64,000 nt of DNA. It comes from Sulfurimonas sp. GTDB taxonomy: Bacteria > Campylobacterota > Campylobacteria > Campylobacterales > Sulfurimonadaceae. The notes below the pieces were generated by a model. It was given only the letters and a program-made list of their open reading frames with translations. It did not search any database and was not told the DNA's origin. Both the position numbers and the translations under genes were made by a program. This document shows positions 2,081 to 35,396 of the stretch, piece after piece. Where the stretch lies: positions 78,978-142,977 of the forward strand of contig PPDH01000028.1 in the NCBI GenBank assembly GCA_002899765.1, written 5' to 3'. Every line of letters begins with the position of its first letter. Position 1 is the first letter of the stretch.

Positions 2081-3196
2081 TTATTTGTGTCTGCTATTTA
2101 TCTCTTCTTTTAGCATTGCATCTAAAATCTCCATAACCGTATGACTTGCTTTTTCTGCATCTCTAAAATAAGTCATTACGTTTTTAGCCTCTTTTGTGCA
2201 TGTATTTTGCGCCACACAATCGACCGCTTTTTTGATGTTGTCATGTACAAGCGCATGCGGCGCATCAAGTTTTGCATAACTAGGAGTTTTGCTAAATTTT
2301 TCTTGACCGATTCCACTCTCATACCACATGCCCAAACGACACTCTTTATGAGAAGCAAATTTCGTATGTGCTTCTCCTTTAAAGACTGTTTTATAGCCGT
2401 TTGCTTTAAATAGAAGATGGTCTAGTTTAACTAAAACCATAAATATCTCATTTGTTACATCTTGATTGCTCTGCGCAATTTCTACGGAACTATCACGCAG
2501 AGAACTTATCTTATACTGCAAAGACCCTATCTGCTCGTTTGAACTCGTTGAGAGCTCCTCCATGGATTGAGAGTGTGCATGTACCTCTTGCGTATTTTGC
2601 TTGAGGCTTTGCACGGTTATCTCGACTTCGCTTGTAGCTTTTTGTGTTCTCTCTGCAAGTTTACGAACCTCATCGGCGACAACCGCAAATCCCCTTCCAT
2701 GCTCGCCGGCACGTGCTGCTTCTATGGCAGCATTGAGTGCCAACAAGTTTGTTTGATCACTTATATCTTTGATAAGATTGATAACCGCTGAGATATTTTC
2801 AACATTTGTATTAAGAGTGTTGACCTGATCGTAAGTGCTTGTAATGTGTTCGAGCAAAGAGTGCATGGTCTGCATAAGAGAGTTTGCATCCAAAAGTGAA
2901 TCATCTGCCTTTTGTGCATTGCTATGACTTCTCTTGTCTACCTCTTCAAGAGCCTTTAGATTTTGCGTCAGTCCATCTTGAAGATGGTGCATATCACTCG
3001 CACATGCCTCCGTTAAACCTTCGGTCAATGCTTTTATGAGATCATTCATAATCTGCTGATCGTTATTTTGAGTTGCTTTTTTTTCAAGCTCCTCTACTTT
3101 TCTTTTGGTTTCTTGCAGCTCTTTTTCGAGTCTTTGTATCTCTTTGTCTTTTGCATCGAGCTCTGCTTTATCTTTCTCATTTTTTCCAAAAAACAT
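2081..3196 (-). CDS. Soluble methyl-accepting chemotaxis protein with CZB domain (TlpD-like)
   Basis: A cytoplasmic chemoreceptor: no transmembrane segment is present. The N-terminal 50 residues are a charged coiled coil. The signalling hairpin is at about 140-190 and contains the conserved tip [20 protein letters not shown] followed by [15 protein letters not shown], which contacts CheA/CheW. The C-terminal CZB zinc-binding domain (about 255-345) shows the His of DHLLFK, the ECRLGMWY motif with its zinc-ligand Cys, and the His pair in HALVHDNI. The same architecture is found in Helicobacter pylori TlpD, which responds to oxidants such as HOCl; a similar role here is inferred. It is monocistronic and convergent with the Cys-rich gene. 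Confidence 0.9.
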
Positions 3197-3341
3197 TCTA
3201 ACCCCTTAGCATTTTTTTATAATTAAAAATAATATCTTTCTTTTATTGAATAGCATATTAAAGTATATAATAATATTTTTTACCATCTTTACTTTTACCT
3301 AAAGTAACCATCTTGTAATAAATATTTCCTACTATTTTGGC

Positions 3342-20907: not shown

Positions 20908-21627
20908 TTATCTTTTCAAATACTCCAAAGCTATTTTCTTAGCCTTCGCTCCGTTTGCGCCTTCGCCTTTTATGTTAAAAGCAAAAACGGTAGTTTTATC
21001 ACGGTTTTGCACAAAACCCACAAACCAACCTGCTCCGCCGCAGCTTCCTGTTTTTCCACCGAGTCTATAAGTATCGCTTTTTTCTAAAGTGATAATATCT
21101 TTAGCCGTCTCCATTACATGTTGCGGCATTTCTAAGTTATTACGCATAAGCCGCGCTAGAAAATCAACCTGTTCGTTTAGAGAGATTTTGAGGCTTCCAT
21201 TTCCAAGCCAAAAGTCCGTAATAGTATTGGAAGTATCCGCATTGCCGTACTGAGCTCTGCTCACATACTCTCGCATCCTCTTTTCGCCTATGCGACTAGC
21301 CAACTCTTGATAAAACCAAACGGCAGATACGGCTATGGCAGAATGCATAGTATGGTCACGGTTCCACACTTCATACTCCCGTTTTACCCCATCCCACTTT
21401 ATAACCTCATTCTCATCTTTAACGACTCCGCTATCAAGAGCTATCATAGAGTTAAGGATTTTAAAAGTAGAACACGGACTAAACCTCTCATCTGCCCTTA
21501 TTCCAAAAACTGTTTTTTCTGAACTGTTCAAATCCAATATAACCGCACTTCCGTCATACTTGCCGAAATTCGGCTCTAAAGCATAAAGCGGTAAAATAAA
21601 TATAAATAAAATCAATAATTTTGACAT
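20908..21627 (-). CDS. Class D (OXA-type) beta-lactamase
   Basis: Periplasmic serine beta-lactamase of 239 residues. Signal peptide MSKLLILFIFILPLYA. Class D landmarks are complete: STFK (residues about 53-56; Ser nucleophile and carbamylated Lys), SAV, YGN, the FWLG tryptophan loop, and KTG within GGKTGSCGGAGWFVGF. Class D enzymes are chromosomal in many Campylobacterota (OXA-61 relatives in Campylobacter), so this need not be an acquired resistance gene. No integron or insertion-sequence signal is seen nearby. The substrate range cannot be told from sequence. Confidence 0.93.
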   Translation of the reverse strand: MSKLLILFIFILPLYALEPNFGKYDGSAVILDLNSSEKTVFGIRADERFSPCSTFKILNSMIALDSGVVKDENEVIKWDGVKREYEVWNRDHTMHSAIAVSAVWFYQELASRIGEKRMREYVSRAQYGNADTSNTITDFWLGNGSLKISLNEQVDFLARLMRNNLEMPQHVMETAKDIITLEKSDTYRLGGKTGSCGGAGWFVGFVQNRDKTTVFAFNIKGEGANGAKAKKIALEYLKR

Positions 21628-29973: not shown

Positions 29974-30027
29974 CCAAATACTTTGTAAAAAATATAAAAA
30001 ATAATAATACCATATTTTTTCTGAACT

Positions 30028-30061
30028 GTTTTTGCCTGTTGTTTATCATTTAAATTATAAA
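30028..30061 (+). repeat. Promoter-proximal repeat, copy 1
   Basis: 34 bases matching 31541-31574 at 31 positions; the other copy spans the -12 element and leader of a sigma-54-like promoter. In this copy the -24 GG reads TG, so the promoter looks broken. No other feature is seen in 29974-30160. Confidence 0.6.
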
Positions 30062-30160
30062 AGACATAACCATTTTCTATTTATTTCACCAATTTCATTT
30101 AAAGACACTATATAGTCTTGAAACTAAATACAGTAATTTATGTCGAATTTTAAAGAAAAA

Positions 30161-30182
30161 TTGTGTGACTCTTGTCACACAA
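30161..30182. promoter_or_regulatory. Crp-type operator upstream of dsrE-like gene
   Basis: Perfect inverted repeat with 9-base arms (ttgtgtgac, gtcacacaa) and a 4-base spacer; the core TGTGACTCTTGTCACA matches the Crp consensus TGTGA-N6-TCACA. It is centred about 84 bases upstream of the ATG at 30256. Confidence 0.8.
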
Positions 30183-30255
30183 CAAAGTACTCAAATTTTC
30201 TACAATTCTCACATGCATAAAAAAAAATGCAAAATTATCTTAACGGAGGGTTGAA

Positions 30256-30693
30256 ATGAACCTCAAAAAATTAGTTGCAGGAATTCTTGGAGTCTTTTTG
30301 TTGGTATCAAGTGTAAACGCAGGTACAAACGAGAATAAAAATGTGAAAAAAATAGTCGTGACTATCACAGATAGTTCCATAGTAAAATCGGGTTTTGGTT
30401 TAGCAGTTGCAAATGCGATGCAAGATGCAGGAGTTCAAAGTACGGTTTTTGTCTCCGCCGAAGCAGTCGATTTCGCACTCAAAGACGGAAATCCTGAAAA
30501 ATTTGCAGGAAGTTCTGCGCAAGAGTGGATAGCACAACTCATCAAAAAAGGCGGTAAAGTCAAGATTTGTGAGGGTTTTGTAAAACTTGGCGGTATTAAA
30601 AAGTCAGATATGCTAGATGGTGTCGGTGTCTCATCTCCTGCTGATTTAGCAGGTGCACTTTACGCTCCAAATACCAAAGCGATGACTTTCTAA
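30256..30693 (+). CDS. Periplasmic DsrE/DsrF-like protein
   Basis: 145 residues. A signal peptide (cut after VNA) precedes a DsrE fold of about 115 residues: KKIVVTITDS, GFGLAVANAMQDAGVQSTVFVSAEAV, and a single Cys in GKVKICEGFVKLGGIKKSDM at the position of the sulfur-carrying cysteine of this family. Export makes it a likely periplasmic sulfur-handling protein, consistent with sulfur-oxidising Campylobacterota. A strong Crp-type palindrome lies upstream and a Crp/Fnr regulator gene follows 79 bases downstream. It has a GGAGGG-type ribosome site. Confidence 0.8.
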   Translation: MNLKKLVAGILGVFLLVSSVNAGTNENKNVKKIVVTITDSSIVKSGFGLAVANAMQDAGVQSTVFVSAEAVDFALKDGNPEKFAGSSAQEWIAQLIKKGGKVKICEGFVKLGGIKKSDMLDGVGVSSPADLAGALYAPNTKAMTF

Positions 30694-30771
30694 CTCTTTC
30701 ATACAGTGATTTTTACTGTAAAACATGATATGATTTTTTCATGTCATGTTACCTCAACACTAGGAGCAATC

Positions 30772-31401
30772 ATGCAACTTCAAGATTACCAGTTTTTTAA
30801 ATCCTTAGAACCACATGTCATGCAAAAAGTGTTAGAAGATGTAAAAAAAGTCTCTGTCGGAGTCGGCTCTTTTCTTTATTATCAGGGCGATATAAATGAC
30901 GGGATTTTATTTTTACAAAAAGGTTCTGTCAAAGTTTTTTTACACTCCGACGAAATAGGCAAAGGGGAAATCACCCTTTACTACATAACCCCTGGAGAGC
31001 AGTGCCTTGTCAATACACTAAGCACTATTTCCCAGACTCCGGCAACTGCAACGGCAATTGTAGATGAAAGTATAACAGGATGGTTGGTTCCTGCAAAAAC
31101 GATGCAGTGGCTTGTTGAAAATTCTCCTGCCTACAGAGAATTTAAAGTTGCTTTTTGTGCTCAAAGACTCGGACAGATATTTCAACTTGTTGAAGAACTT
31201 CGTTTTAAAAGAATGGATCAAAGACTACTCAACTGGCTTTTTGTGCAAGGAAGAGACACCATACATACAACCCATGAACAAATAGCAACTATTTTAGGAA
31301 CCTCAAGAGAAGTGATAAGCAGAATTTTAAAGAATCTTGAAAAAGAAGGAGTTGTTTCACTCGGTCGCGGTTGGATAAAACTTATTCAAGAGCTTCGATA
31401 A
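30772..31401 (+). CDS. Crp/Fnr-family transcriptional regulator
   Basis: 209 residues from ATG 30772 (AGGAG upstream; an in-frame ATG at 30706 has no ribosome site). The cyclic-nucleotide-type beta-barrel sensor fills about 10-120 (VGVGSFLYYQGDINDGILFLQKGSVKVF) and lacks the N-terminal cysteine cluster of oxygen-sensing Fnr. The C-terminal HTH is IATILGTSREVISRILKNLE; R-E-x-x-S-R at the recognition helix keeps the Arg-Glu and Arg used by Crp to read TGTGA. Two TGTGAC-N4-GTCACA palindromes on either side of the gene (30161-30182, 31505-31532) are its likely sites. The signal is unknown. Confidence 0.88.
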   Translation: MQLQDYQFFKSLEPHVMQKVLEDVKKVSVGVGSFLYYQGDINDGILFLQKGSVKVFLHSDEIGKGEITLYYITPGEQCLVNTLSTISQTPATATAIVDESITGWLVPAKTMQWLVENSPAYREFKVAFCAQRLGQIFQLVEELRFKRMDQRLLNWLFVQGRDTIHTTHEQIATILGTSREVISRILKNLEKEGVVSLGRGWIKLIQELR

Positions 31402-31504
31402 TTCCCACATGCCAAACTATAAAAAATGATTCCTAAAAATGTTTTATAGCAACATCTATCTGCATAATTTCTCCTTTTTTTGTTAATTTTTTACAAACAA
31501 AATG

Positions 31505-31532
31505 ACCTTATGTGACAAAAGTCACATAAGGT
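31505..31532. promoter_or_regulatory. Long Crp-type operator palindrome
   Basis: Perfect inverted repeat with 12-base arms (accttatgtgac, gtcacataaggt) around AAAA. It shares TGTGAC-N4-GTCACA with the site at 30161. It directly abuts a sigma-54-like promoter (31534-31549), so bound regulator would overlap or flank the polymerase. Confidence 0.85.
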
Positions 31533-31533
31533 T

Positions 31534-31549
31534 TGGTATCGTTTTTGCT
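31534..31549 (+). promoter_or_regulatory. Sigma-54-like promoter
   Basis: TGGTATCGTTTTTGCT, with GG at 31535-31536 and GC at 31547-31548, 10 bases apart. It lies 35 bases upstream of the ATG at 31584. Confidence 0.65.
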
Positions 31550-31574
31550 TGTTGTTTATCATTTAAACTGTAAA
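31541..31574 (+). repeat. Promoter-proximal repeat, copy 2
   Basis: The intact partner of 30028-30061 (31 of 34 identical). It includes the -12 element and the leader up to the ribosome site of the gene at 31584. Confidence 0.6.
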
Positions 31575-31583
31575 GGAGTGGTT

Positions 31584-32588
31584 ATGGAGACTTCTACTGC
31601 TTATCAAAGCTACTTAAATGTAATGCAAAATTACCAAACAACGCAAGGGCGCAAGGATTATCAGGCTCCTTTTGCCGAGAGTTTTGAGCTTATTTACTCA
31701 AAAGCGCAGGAAGAGGATATCAAACTCTCAAATGCCAAAAACTTTTTGGAGTCACTCTCTCAAAGTGAAATAAGAACACTTCAAAAATACTCTGGTCTTG
31801 CAGATTCTATCAATGTAAACTCGCTCTCTGCAGAGGGTGCGTACAATCTGCTGATGCACGACAATGAACAGTATGATTTTGACGGCAACGGAACTGCGGA
31901 AGTGGGAATAGGCAAACATATATTGCCTGTACCTAAAAATATGCCTGCTGACGTTCAAGAAGCGTATATTTCGGCTATGAACTCTCTTAGCGACAAAGAC
32001 AAACTTATGGCGATGACGCTGACATTTGACCCCGCACACTTGGATTCGGTTATAAACAACAAAGCTTATACTCCGACAAATATGGACTACAACTACCTCA
32101 AAAGCAGAGTCGAAAATATGCTAAATCCTCAAAACGGGGGCTATACATCTGTTGAAGCAAAAGAGAGCATAACGGCATTTTGGAACGCTTTTGATGCCGC
32201 TTATACTGGAGACAAAACTCAAAGCTCACAAAGTCAAAGCGAAGAAAACAGCGCGGTAGAGAAATTTTTATATGACCTTCGCACAAAAGGAGCTGCAAAA
32301 TTCTTAGCCGACTTAAATCAAGAGAAGATAGACAAGATGGTCGAAGAGTATAAACAGAAACTCATTGATGAGATGGGCGACTCTCCCGAAGCTATGGAGA
32401 AAATCGCAAAACTTGTAGATGAGTTCAAAAAGAACCTTATTGAAGAGATGAAAGAGAAGATGGAGGAGGAGTTGAAAAATAAAGATGTAAATTCTGTAAA
32501 GATAGACACCTTTATCATGACAATGCTCAACAATATGCAAGAGGAAGAGACAAAACCGTTAGAAAAATTACTGCAGTTTAAAAACTAG
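31584..32588 (+). CDS. Unknown 334-residue protein behind a sigma-54-like promoter
   Basis: Start at 31584 with AAAGGAG upstream; an upstream in-frame ATG at 31533 would begin inside the promoter. The protein is soluble and has no signal peptide. At about residues 96-107 YDFDGNGTAEVG looks like an EF-hand-type Ca loop (DxDGNGxxE). The C-terminal third (about 245-334) is a long charged coiled coil (DEFKKNLIEEMKEKMEEELK). No family is recognised. It and the unknown proteins at 19112 and 21663 share promoter type and a polar N terminus, hinting at a common programme, possibly flagellar or surface-related. Confidence 0.7.
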   Translation: METSTAYQSYLNVMQNYQTTQGRKDYQAPFAESFELIYSKAQEEDIKLSNAKNFLESLSQSEIRTLQKYSGLADSINVNSLSAEGAYNLLMHDNEQYDFDGNGTAEVGIGKHILPVPKNMPADVQEAYISAMNSLSDKDKLMAMTLTFDPAHLDSVINNKAYTPTNMDYNYLKSRVENMLNPQNGGYTSVEAKESITAFWNAFDAAYTGDKTQSSQSQSEENSAVEKFLYDLRTKGAAKFLADLNQEKIDKMVEEYKQKLIDEMGDSPEAMEKIAKLVDEFKKNLIEEMKEKMEEELKNKDVNSVKIDTFIMTMLNNMQEEETKPLEKLLQFKN

Positions 32589-32597
32589 AGCATTTCT

Positions 32598-34160
32598 TTA
32601 CCTTTTTCTATACCCTTTGTTGCTTATCCCGCGTCCTGCGTAGTTTTTCTTAAAGCATGACTGGCAAATTCCATAAGGTGAGTTTGGCGGTAGAGGCGCG
32701 TTGCACATTCTGCACTTTGTAGCGAGCTGGCTCTGCTGAAGCGAGTTTTCTATGAACTTGTTCAGAACTCCTCTTGCGGCTCTAGCTCTGTTTGCATCTA
32801 CAAAATAGTCGCTAAATCTATAACTGAGCCAGAGATAGAGTGAAATCTCCTTTACCATATCTTCGGCGCGCAGAAGCTCATCCGTTGTGAGCGCATAACT
32901 TCCGCTTAAAGGCGGAGCAGTGTATGGAATAGGCATATTTTTTTCAAGCGCTCCTAAATAACTTTCATATGCTGCAATTATATATGGCGATTTTAGCGTA
33001 AGCGGCGCACATGCCAGATGGTACTTTGTGGCGATATCGAGATCATAACTATCCACCAAAACGGAAACTTCTAACATGTCATCTAGGTTTGTAGCTATAA
33101 AAGGGCCGTCAAACTCCATATTTTTTGCAAAAAACTTTAGTATCTCATGAAGCGACTTCTCTTCAAGTATGCTTCCGACAAGCTTTATATGCTCTAAGTT
33201 TGCCATCACTTTAAAAGGTATGGTTATAGTCTTTGCTTCTTTATAAAAGTTCTTTTTGATAATGTTTAAAACATCACCGCTCAAAGCTCCGACATAGCCG
33301 TTTTCATGCAAACCAAACCTTCCCGCACGACCCGAAATCTGATGAATCTCGCTTGGGAGCAGATTTCTGTCATTTACGCCATCAAACTTCTCGGCTTTTG
33401 AGAAAAGTATAGTTTTTATGGGCATATTCAGCCCCATTGCAATGGCATCTGTTGCCACGAGTATCTGCGTCTCGCCTGCACGGAATCTTCTTGCCTCTTC
33501 GCGCCTTACTTCGGGAGAGAGATTGCCGTAAACAACGCTAACACTGAAGTATTTGGAAAAAACCTGCTTGAGCTTTAGCACGTCTTTTCTGCTAAAAGCG
33601 ATGATTGCCGTGCTAGGTTCTACATCCTTTTCATAAGTAGGCTCGTTTAGAAGTGTCAACGGATTTTTTCTCTCAAACTCTACTATCTCAAGCTCTTCTC
33701 CCAGATACGCGGCTAGTGCGATAACTGCTTCCTTCGCATTTGGCGAACCTGTCATGATAATCTCTTTTGCAGGTGCGCCGATGATAGCATTTGCCCATGC
33801 CCAGCCGCGGTCGCGGTCATCTAACATCTGCACCTCATCAATAACGCAGACATCCACATCCACATCAAAGTTTACCATCTCGATAGTTGAACTTATATGA
33901 GAGGCATCTTCGCTTACAATCTGCTCTTCACCCGTTATTAAAGAGACTTCAATCCCACTCTCTTTTAGCTCCTCATACCCTTCGAGTGCCAGGAGTCTAA
34001 GCGGTGCCAGATAGTAGCCCGTATCGGCATTTTTAAGCTTTTGCATCGCCTGATATGTCTTTCCACTGTTTGTCGGTCCTATGTGAAGAGTCAGCTTTCT
34101 TCTCATGTCACGTGCAAGCGGAAAGAGATTTTTAAAGTCTCTTATGGTGCGTGCCAACAA
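32598..34160 (-). CDS. SUV3-like DEAD/DEAH-box helicase
   Basis: 520 residues. Superfamily 2 helicase motifs in order: I LHIGPTNSGKTYQAM, Ia APLRLLALE, II VCVIDEVQML (DEVQ), III MTGSPN, IV AIIAFSRKDV, V ATDAIAMGLNM, VI HQISGRAGRFG. The spacing and DEVQ box match mitochondrial SUV3-type RNA helicases, and the C-terminal Cys pairs (CRMCNAPLPPNSPYGICQSC) may hold zinc. A role in RNA turnover is inferred. The gene upstream ends one base before it, so they are co-transcribed. It is convergent with the unknown gene ending at 32588. Confidence 0.88.
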   Translation of the reverse strand: MLARTIRDFKNLFPLARDMRRKLTLHIGPTNSGKTYQAMQKLKNADTGYYLAPLRLLALEGYEELKESGIEVSLITGEEQIVSEDASHISSTIEMVNFDVDVDVCVIDEVQMLDDRDRGWAWANAIIGAPAKEIIMTGSPNAKEAVIALAAYLGEELEIVEFERKNPLTLLNEPTYEKDVEPSTAIIAFSRKDVLKLKQVFSKYFSVSVVYGNLSPEVRREEARRFRAGETQILVATDAIAMGLNMPIKTILFSKAEKFDGVNDRNLLPSEIHQISGRAGRFGLHENGYVGALSGDVLNIIKKNFYKEAKTITIPFKVMANLEHIKLVGSILEEKSLHEILKFFAKNMEFDGPFIATNLDDMLEVSVLVDSYDLDIATKYHLACAPLTLKSPYIIAAYESYLGALEKNMPIPYTAPPLSGSYALTTDELLRAEDMVKEISLYLWLSYRFSDYFVDANRARAARGVLNKFIENSLQQSQLATKCRMCNAPLPPNSPYGICQSCFKKNYAGRGISNKGYRKR

Positions 34161-35396
34161 CTAATATCTCTGCTTTTTAAGTATCTCGTCATGTATGTTG
34201 TGAACAAATCGTCTCACGCTCTTTCGCACTATTTTTGGCGAAATGTCAAGAGAAGAAGGCAGCAGTTCTAAGAGCACCGTATAGACTTTGTCATGAAGAG
34301 CCTCCTTGCTTAAATGAAGCAGCTCAGCATACGAGCCGCACTCCTCTACAAGAGCCTGCAAATCTGCTAAAAACTGCTCTTCATGCTCTCTTTTTGACTC
34401 ATTTACTGCCTCGCTGAAATCAAGCTCGTTTGCCCCCCAGATATCTTCTAAAAGAGAGTTAAGCTCTACATGTAGCTCTAAAATGTACTCTTGAGAAATC
34501 TCGGCATAAGGGAGTTTCAGACTCTCTTTCATTCTTACCAAAAGCTCTTCGTCATGAAGCTCTATCTCCACATCTCCAAGTTCGCCAGCGATAATACTAG
34601 ACAAAATCCCCTCTTTTAAAAGCGGGTAAGAAACCTTTGTCTTTGGCGGAGTTGCGCGGAGTGCGCCCACTATCTCTTTTTGACTCAGATAGGGGTGAGG
34701 CTCTTTGAGATTTTTTATGAAAGAGTCAATCTCCTTTTGTTTTTTGAGAGTAACTCGCTCTTTTTCTTCTAAAATTTCCTCTACAAGCTGTGCTTCATCG
34801 CATTCTTGAAGATACTCATACTCGTAAACTTTCGTGTTAAGCGTGAGTATCTTGTGAAAACTCTGTCCATACAAAATATAATGAAGAGAAGCGTTAAACT
34901 CCAAAGAGTCGTCAATGTCAAAAAAAGCGTCAACTTTTTTCTCAACTCTCTCTTTTTTGAGGTTGTATCTGATGTGACGGAGTTTTGACTCCATCTTCTC
35001 TATAGTTATTTTTTTGCTTCTGACATCGGAAAAAGCCTCATGTAAAAGCACTGCCTCTTCCTGTGTCACATTAAGCTCGCCTATAAGAGCCTCTATCTTA
35101 TCATCCCTATCAAGATTCGGCTCTTTTGGCGTAGTTGATTTATAAACTTTGCCCTCGTTTGCAAAAAAGTTTAAAATGTCAGAGCGAAAATCTCCATTCC
35201 CCTCGCTCCACAGCATTCTTGAGAGCTTCACAAGCATATCTTTACTCTGGTCTATATCATAGATTCCAAGTGTGTTAAACATCTCGCTTAACGTATGCGA
35301 ACTTACTCTTGCAACTCCTACATCAAACGGGTCATCATCAAAATATTTTCTAATTTTTTGGTTTATTTTTGTATTTTTCTTATTTTTCTTTGCCAT
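34161..35396 (-). CDS. Unknown 411-residue helical protein coupled to the helicase
   Basis: A highly charged, mostly helical protein. The N-terminal tail is very basic (AKKNKKNTKINQKIRKYF), then DDDPFDVGVARVSSHTLSEMFNTLGI. Several Glu-rich helices follow (EEILEEKERVTLKKQKEIDSF). There is no signal peptide, membrane helix or catalytic motif. The adjacent helicase begins right after the stop, suggesting a shared RNA-related job; the basic tail fits nucleic-acid or ribosome contact. No family is recognised. It begins 48 bases after the efflux permease gene. Confidence 0.7.
   Translation of the reverse strand: MAKKNKKNTKINQKIRKYFDDDPFDVGVARVSSHTLSEMFNTLGIYDIDQSKDMLVKLSRMLWSEGNGDFRSDILNFFANEGKVYKSTTPKEPNLDRDDKIEALIGELNVTQEEAVLLHEAFSDVRSKKITIEKMESKLRHIRYNLKKERVEKKVDAFFDIDDSLEFNASLHYILYGQSFHKILTLNTKVYEYEYLQECDEAQLVEEILEEKERVTLKKQKEIDSFIKNLKEPHPYLSQKEIVGALRATPPKTKVSYPLLKEGILSSIIAGELGDVEIELHDEELLVRMKESLKLPYAEISQEYILELHVELNSLLEDIWGANELDFSEAVNESKREHEEQFLADLQALVEECGSYAELLHLSKEALHDKVYTVLLELLPSSLDISPKIVRKSVRRFVHNIHDEILKKQRY

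Follow-up and report, generated by a model that had tools for sequence, protein, structure and literature searches.

The window analysed here, a stretch of 64,000 nucleotides from a Sulfurimonas sp. genome (G000), harbours a Crp/Fnr regulator gene (30772..31401, plus strand) that lies between two perfect palindromes, neither of which has a strand. Site 1 (30161-30182, centre 30171.5), located upstream of dsrE-crp, consists of 9-base arms around a four-base spacer (TTGTGTGAC-TCTT-GTCACACAA), and site 2 (31505-31532, centre 31518.5) of 12-base arms (ACCTTATGTGAC-AAAA-GTCACATAAGGT). As reported in a preliminary description of this DNA, the core TGTGAC-N4-GTCACA is common to both sites, on either side of the regulator gene. 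In the nearest relative (G005, Crp 94% identical), the spacer of site 1 reads AAGA on the same strand (L017/L046), which looks like an inversion of the palindrome's central bases.

Between site 1 and the regulator gene lies a dsrE-like gene (30256..30693, plus strand), whose 145-aa product matches PF02635 (9.6e-9) with 35.9 bits against a gathering score of 22.7 and thus belongs to the DsrE family. The protein is predicted to be exported, its N-terminus resembling a signal peptide by eye, and its Cys105, the candidate residue for sulfur transfer, is conserved in all six aligned sequences. A -10-like hexamer (TACAAT, 30201..30206, plus strand) starts 29 bases from the centre of site 1 and would place the operator at about -41.5 in the dsrE-crp promoter, the class II arrangement. 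The regulator itself (209 aa) combines a cNMP-type sensor domain (PF00027, 1.2e-8) with a Crp-type HTH domain (PF13545, 2e-12), the domain pair of the Crp/Fnr superfamily, and its recognition helix shows the R-E-x-x-S-R series noted previously (R179-E180-V-I-S-R184).

Directly against site 2 lies the sigma-54-type promoter that the preliminary description had recognized there (TTGGTATCGTTTTTGCTT, 31533..31550, plus strand; GG at 31535-31536, GC at 31547-31548), followed by a gene for a 334-aa protein (31584..32588, plus strand), homologues of which were found in 29 of 135 genus genomes. A Pfam search gave no accepted family for this protein, and its structure model is all helical, with a mean pLDDT of 59.7. 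By eye, it contains the stretch DFDGNGTAE, which resembles part of an EF-hand calcium loop. Further along, a gene for a Suv3-like helicase (32598-35396, minus strand), one 932-aa frame in G005 and G023, consists here of adjacent frames of 411 and 520 aa and looks interrupted by a single in-frame stop. Elsewhere in the window, the product of 20908-21627 (minus strand) is predicted to be exported and carries an S-T-F-K motif that, by eye, resembles the one in class D beta-lactamases.

A scan of the whole genome (2,390,858 bases, 45 contigs), as had been proposed earlier, detected the exact core TGTGAC-N4-GTCACA twice, at sites 1 and 2, and the many copies at unrelated genes that would have spoken for another Crp were not seen. 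In 100 dinucleotide shuffles of the window this core occurred on average 0.00 times, no shuffle holding two. The looser pattern TGTGA-N6-TCACA was found three times in the genome, against two for the control pattern; two of the three are sites 1 and 2, and the third (C2:32052) is located within an open reading frame, as is the one-mismatch site TGTGACTTATGCCACA (C25:34906). Site 2 is the only perfect TATGTGA-N6-TCACATA in G000 and the best consensus match of the genome; the only perfect extended match in G178 is the doxX-peroxidase operator directly after crp. A genome-wide regulon was sought and not found, either with TGTGA-N6-TCACA (3, 3, 5, and 3 copies against 2, 2, 5, and 2 of the control in G000, G005, G013, and G129, respectively) or with the extended pattern at up to two mismatches (17, 17, 9, and 6 against 12, 9, 14, and 9 in G000, G005, G178, and G356).

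A Crp clade and its operators

Related loci were collected from 135 genus genomes, from 228 family genomes searched with a DsrE alignment (7/228 matched), and from a phylum sample of 397 genomes searched with a Crp alignment, in which 16 matched at E 1e-55. Together, these searches led to 14 loci, picked by protein similarity and not by operators; the five weakest of the 16 phylum matches (G002, G012, G110, G180, and G208; E 2e-61 to 9e-56) were left out. When placed in a tree together with 26 further Crp proteins (25 of the 26 comparison loci L020-L045, L021 being left out, plus a G000 paralogue), the 14 sequences form a distinct clade, separated from the rest by a split with 100/99 support. 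The regulators L023, L028, and L029, from three of the five genomes left out, are placed outside it.

In an alignment to E. coli CRP, the DNA contacts R180, E181, and R185 are kept in 14/14 clade members, whereas the cAMP contacts E72, R82, S83, T127, and S128 are replaced in all 14. The window Crp scores 39.3 bits, against a cut-off of 266 bits for the NCBIfam CRP equivalog. Thus, the regulator probably reads a CRP-type site and should not respond to cAMP. FNR carries an N-terminal cysteine cluster for [4Fe-4S]; no such cluster is present in the window Crp, whose only cysteines are Cys78 and Cys129. Cys78 occurs in all 40 Crp proteins compared (14 clade members and 26 others) and Cys129 in 12/14 clade members versus 0/26 others, so that Cys129 was rejected as a mark of every clade member and neither cysteine is specific proof of a sensor. 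The Crp structure model (two sequences, mean pLDDT 47.4) is usable only in the HTH part, where pLDDT is about 80.

With respect to the operator, TGTGA-N6-TCACA was found less than 1.5 kb from crp in 12/14 clade loci versus 1/26 other Crp loci, 10 of which have TGTAA-N6-TTACA instead, mostly just behind the crp gene. Some paralogues with R-E-x-x-S-R (e.g., L041 and L045) adjoin these TGTAA-N6-TTACA palindromes. Therefore, the recognition helix alone is weak evidence and was rejected as proof of TGTGA binding; of the earlier proposal that the helix suits TGTGA, what stands is the association of the clade with TGTGA-type operators, the contact residues being present in 14/14 members and operators of this type in 13/14. 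The G000 genome also contains a second Crp gene (L050, contig 21, 44035-44670), directly after which lies TATGTAATCGTTGTCACATA (C21:44651), with TACAAT 30 bases from its centre, ahead of a short, probably secreted protein; an identical site is present in G005.

The operator precedes dsrE-crp or crp in 13/14 loci, as an exact TGTGA-N6-TCACA in 10 and with one differing outer base in three (G129, G219, and G225); among the 14 loci examined, only G500 has none upstream of crp. The dsrE-like gene lies immediately before crp in 11/14 loci, the exceptions being G219, G225, and G500. For 13/13 of these primary operators, a hexamer with at least 4/6 matches to TATAAT (a perfect TATAAT in G546, G356, and G504) begins at 29 or 30 bases, counted from the centre of the palindrome, compared with 0-7 of 13 loci at control offsets not overlapping 29-30. 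The class II position of CRP is -41.5, and all 13 operators would lie near it, as judged from -10-like hexamers, that is, from motif-inferred starts. That this operator recurs in different genera and families with a constant promoter spacing makes it very probable that site 1 is an autoregulatory operator and that dsrE-crp is under the control of the regulator, in line with the control of the DsrE-like gene suggested at the outset.

In relatives, the regulator is most often accompanied by a di-haem cytochrome c peroxidase (PF03150; four plus six tested), alongside a cytochrome c or DoxX-like gene. A second operator precedes the peroxidase gene in 10/14 loci (G013, G129, G178, G181, G138, G219, G225, G421, G500, and G504), that is, in 10/10 of those bearing the gene. 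In every case, a -10-like hexamer matching at 4/6 positions or more lies at 29-30 on the peroxidase strand, which would again place the operator at about -41.5. In G178, where this operator begins 7 bases past the stop codon of crp, it is followed by a doxX-like gene and the peroxidase gene. No peroxidase neighbour lies beside crp in G000, G005, G546, or G356, where the best peroxidase matches are elsewhere in the genome and extend over part of the query, at 47-55%. In an uncultured epsilonproteobacterial MAG (L106), a second DsrE-family gene (2847-3320, minus strand; PF02635, 8.6e-13) lies divergently beside dsrE-crp and shares the operator region with it; a -10-like hexamer for this divergent gene was not found at the expected offset. 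Two further operators (L136 3976 and L129 8670, with crp on plus) show a -10-like hexamer at 29 and lie before non-peroxidase genes, pointing to a possibly wider regulon in some of the genomes.

Site 2 and the history of the segment

The promoter beside site 2 has the GG-N10-GC (-24/-12) signature of sigma-54, which is present upstream of 10/11 inspected homologues of the 334-aa gene, and the genome encodes two sigma-54 genes (C8:67503 and C4:178336). Since GG starts three bases past the palindrome and GC lies at offset 28-29 from its centre, site 2 would be centred at about -41 from the presumed sigma-54 start. At the offset expected for class II, 29-30 bases from the centre of site 2, no sigma-70 -10-like hexamer was found, the best match being 2/6. 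The comparison supports both palindromes as operators of this Crp clade, and control of the sigma-54 gene through site 2 is plausible.

A decayed second copy of the sigma-54 promoter region was detected to the left of site 1 (30016..30064, plus strand), in which GG has become TG. It belongs to a 37-nt repeat at 89%, and 41/49 of its bases match both the G005 and the G023 promoters; the intact copy in the window spans 31533-31577. Next to the decayed copy lies a 15-codon relic (30079..30123, minus strand) of a 205-aa gene that is intact in G005, between the two promoter copies of that genome; the tblastn match (E 0.004, 86.7% over 15 aa) is antiparallel and collinear. G005 retains both copies, the left one with GG intact; thus, the repeat predates the split between G000 and G005, and its initial reading as a fresh insertion scar was revised. 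On the simplest reading of these remnants, the promoter region of the 334-aa gene had already received the dsrE-crp segment when that split occurred.

Site 2 is missing in G005, which keeps the gene and its sigma-54 promoter, in G023, where the 334-aa gene is 85% identical and no dsrE match was found, and from the left-hand promoter copies in both G000 and G005. Its absence from these four other copies of the promoter region indicates that site 2 is lineage-specific and derived, the simplest reading being that it arose after the G000/G005 split or was lost in G005 alone. Accordingly, its role finds no comparative support, given its absence from G005 despite the presence of gene and promoter. 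The earlier proposal that the Crp controls the RpoN-dependent gene is thus retained in part: site 2 fits the clade consensus, (TA)TGTGA-N6-TCACA(TA), perfectly, but it is confined to this genome.

Proposed regulation and rival explanations

The reading we favour, and consider probable when its parts are taken together, is that of a local, self-activating Crp that answers to a non-cAMP oxidant or sulfane-sulfur signal and holds back the sigma-54 gene through site 2. Of the mechanistic steps, class II self-activation at site 1 has the strongest backing, which is comparative: bound at about -41.5, the regulator should recruit polymerase as a class II activator, which would amplify the regulator itself and the DsrE-like protein. 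The regulator would also bind site 2, where it could touch the edge of the sigma-54 polymerase and hold back or poise the promoter, so that the 334-aa gene would be lowered when the DsrE unit is raised. With less confidence, the signal may be an oxidant or sulfane sulfur, perceived via Cys78 and perhaps Cys129; such a cysteine-based signal is suggested by Cys78, which is invariant, by Cys129, which is typical of the clade, by Cys105 of the DsrE-like partner, and by the peroxidase.

For site 2, holding back would be the first choice and co-activation the second, with an orphan site as the main rival. The first choice follows a precedent (PMC3900584): at the Pu, dctA, and glnAp2 promoters, the CRP of E. 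coli keeps the sigma-54 polymerase in a closed complex. A bolder version, which we regard as rather doubtful, is that this cAMP-independent clade, centred on DsrE and a periplasmic peroxidase, has captured the sigma-54 gene in the window species, a perfect class II-style operator directly against the -24 element allowing a cysteine-read sulfur or oxidant signal to set a flagellar-type sigma-54 promoter with no upstream enhancer site. If true, the capture would be a young rewiring that ties the handling of sulfur and peroxide in the periplasm to a sigma-54 programme.

The orphan-site explanation, according to which site 1 works and site 2 is either a leftover or new operator or an RNA hairpin that ends crp transcription or shields it from the sigma-54 unit, deserves serious attention, even though we lean against it. 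It fits the occurrence of site 2 in one genome only, and the same spot just after crp in G178 holds the doxX-peroxidase operator, so that the loss of such an operon could have stranded the site. An RNA hairpin is also predicted (-19.1 kcal/mol, z -7.9), but the terminator scan reported it on the minus strand only, the plus-strand T-tract test giving no support. Moreover, the genome's best consensus match can hardly be called decayed, and its centre at about -41 from the presumed sigma-54 start also speaks against this explanation.

It is improbable that another Crp-type protein, such as the contig 21 paralogue, owns site 2 or both sites. This paralogue does have a similar operator (TATGTAATCGTTGTCACATA) with a class II -10, identical in G005; nevertheless, TGTGA-N6-TCACA tracks the clade described here and not the other Crp loci, among which TGTAA-N6-TTACA prevails over it. 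Chance as the origin of the palindromes has almost no probability left: although TGTGA-N6-TCACA is not enriched over the control genome-wide, none of the window shuffles held two copies (mean 0.06), and the conservation of site 1 over genera and families at its fixed spacing already refutes chance for that site.

Comparison with known systems

A literature search at title and abstract level retrieved no description of a dsrE-crp-peroxidase unit, none of the papers searched by term combined DsrE, cytochrome c peroxidase, and Crp, and this Crp clade of Campylobacterota is apparently new to the literature. Its operator is clear, its promoter geometry is fixed, and its regulon is small, comprising the DsrE-like protein, Crp, and the di-haem peroxidase; these features make the regulator's signal directly testable.

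The window protein shares with the DsrE/DsrF family the PF02635 match and a conserved cysteine, but it is single and predicted to be exported, and the locus contains no dsrEFH cluster. With NssR and NssA-C, Crp/Fnr regulators of Campylobacterota, the window Crp has superfamily and phylum in common. NssR, as described in PMC1274295, has the motif TTAACnnnnGTTAA (TTAAC-N4-GTTAA) and the residues A180/Q181, whereas the window Crp has R179/E180 and TGTGA, the neighbours in its clade being DsrE and peroxidase.

The clade resembles E. coli CRP at class II promoters, with the same DNA contacts (R180/E181/R185), the same TGTGA-N6-TCACA, and the operator at -41.5. In contrast to E. coli CRP, the clade lacks the cAMP contacts and appears to act at few local sites, with no global regulon. 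The inhibition of sigma-54 promoters by CRP (dctA, glnAp2, and Pu) likewise pairs a sigma-54 promoter with a Crp-type protein or site; that inhibition was shown experimentally (PMC3900584), whereas the window presents a sequence arrangement, with the operator directly against -24. The window species provides a natural case of a clade operator placed against a sigma-54 promoter, a geometry in which E. coli CRP acts negatively.
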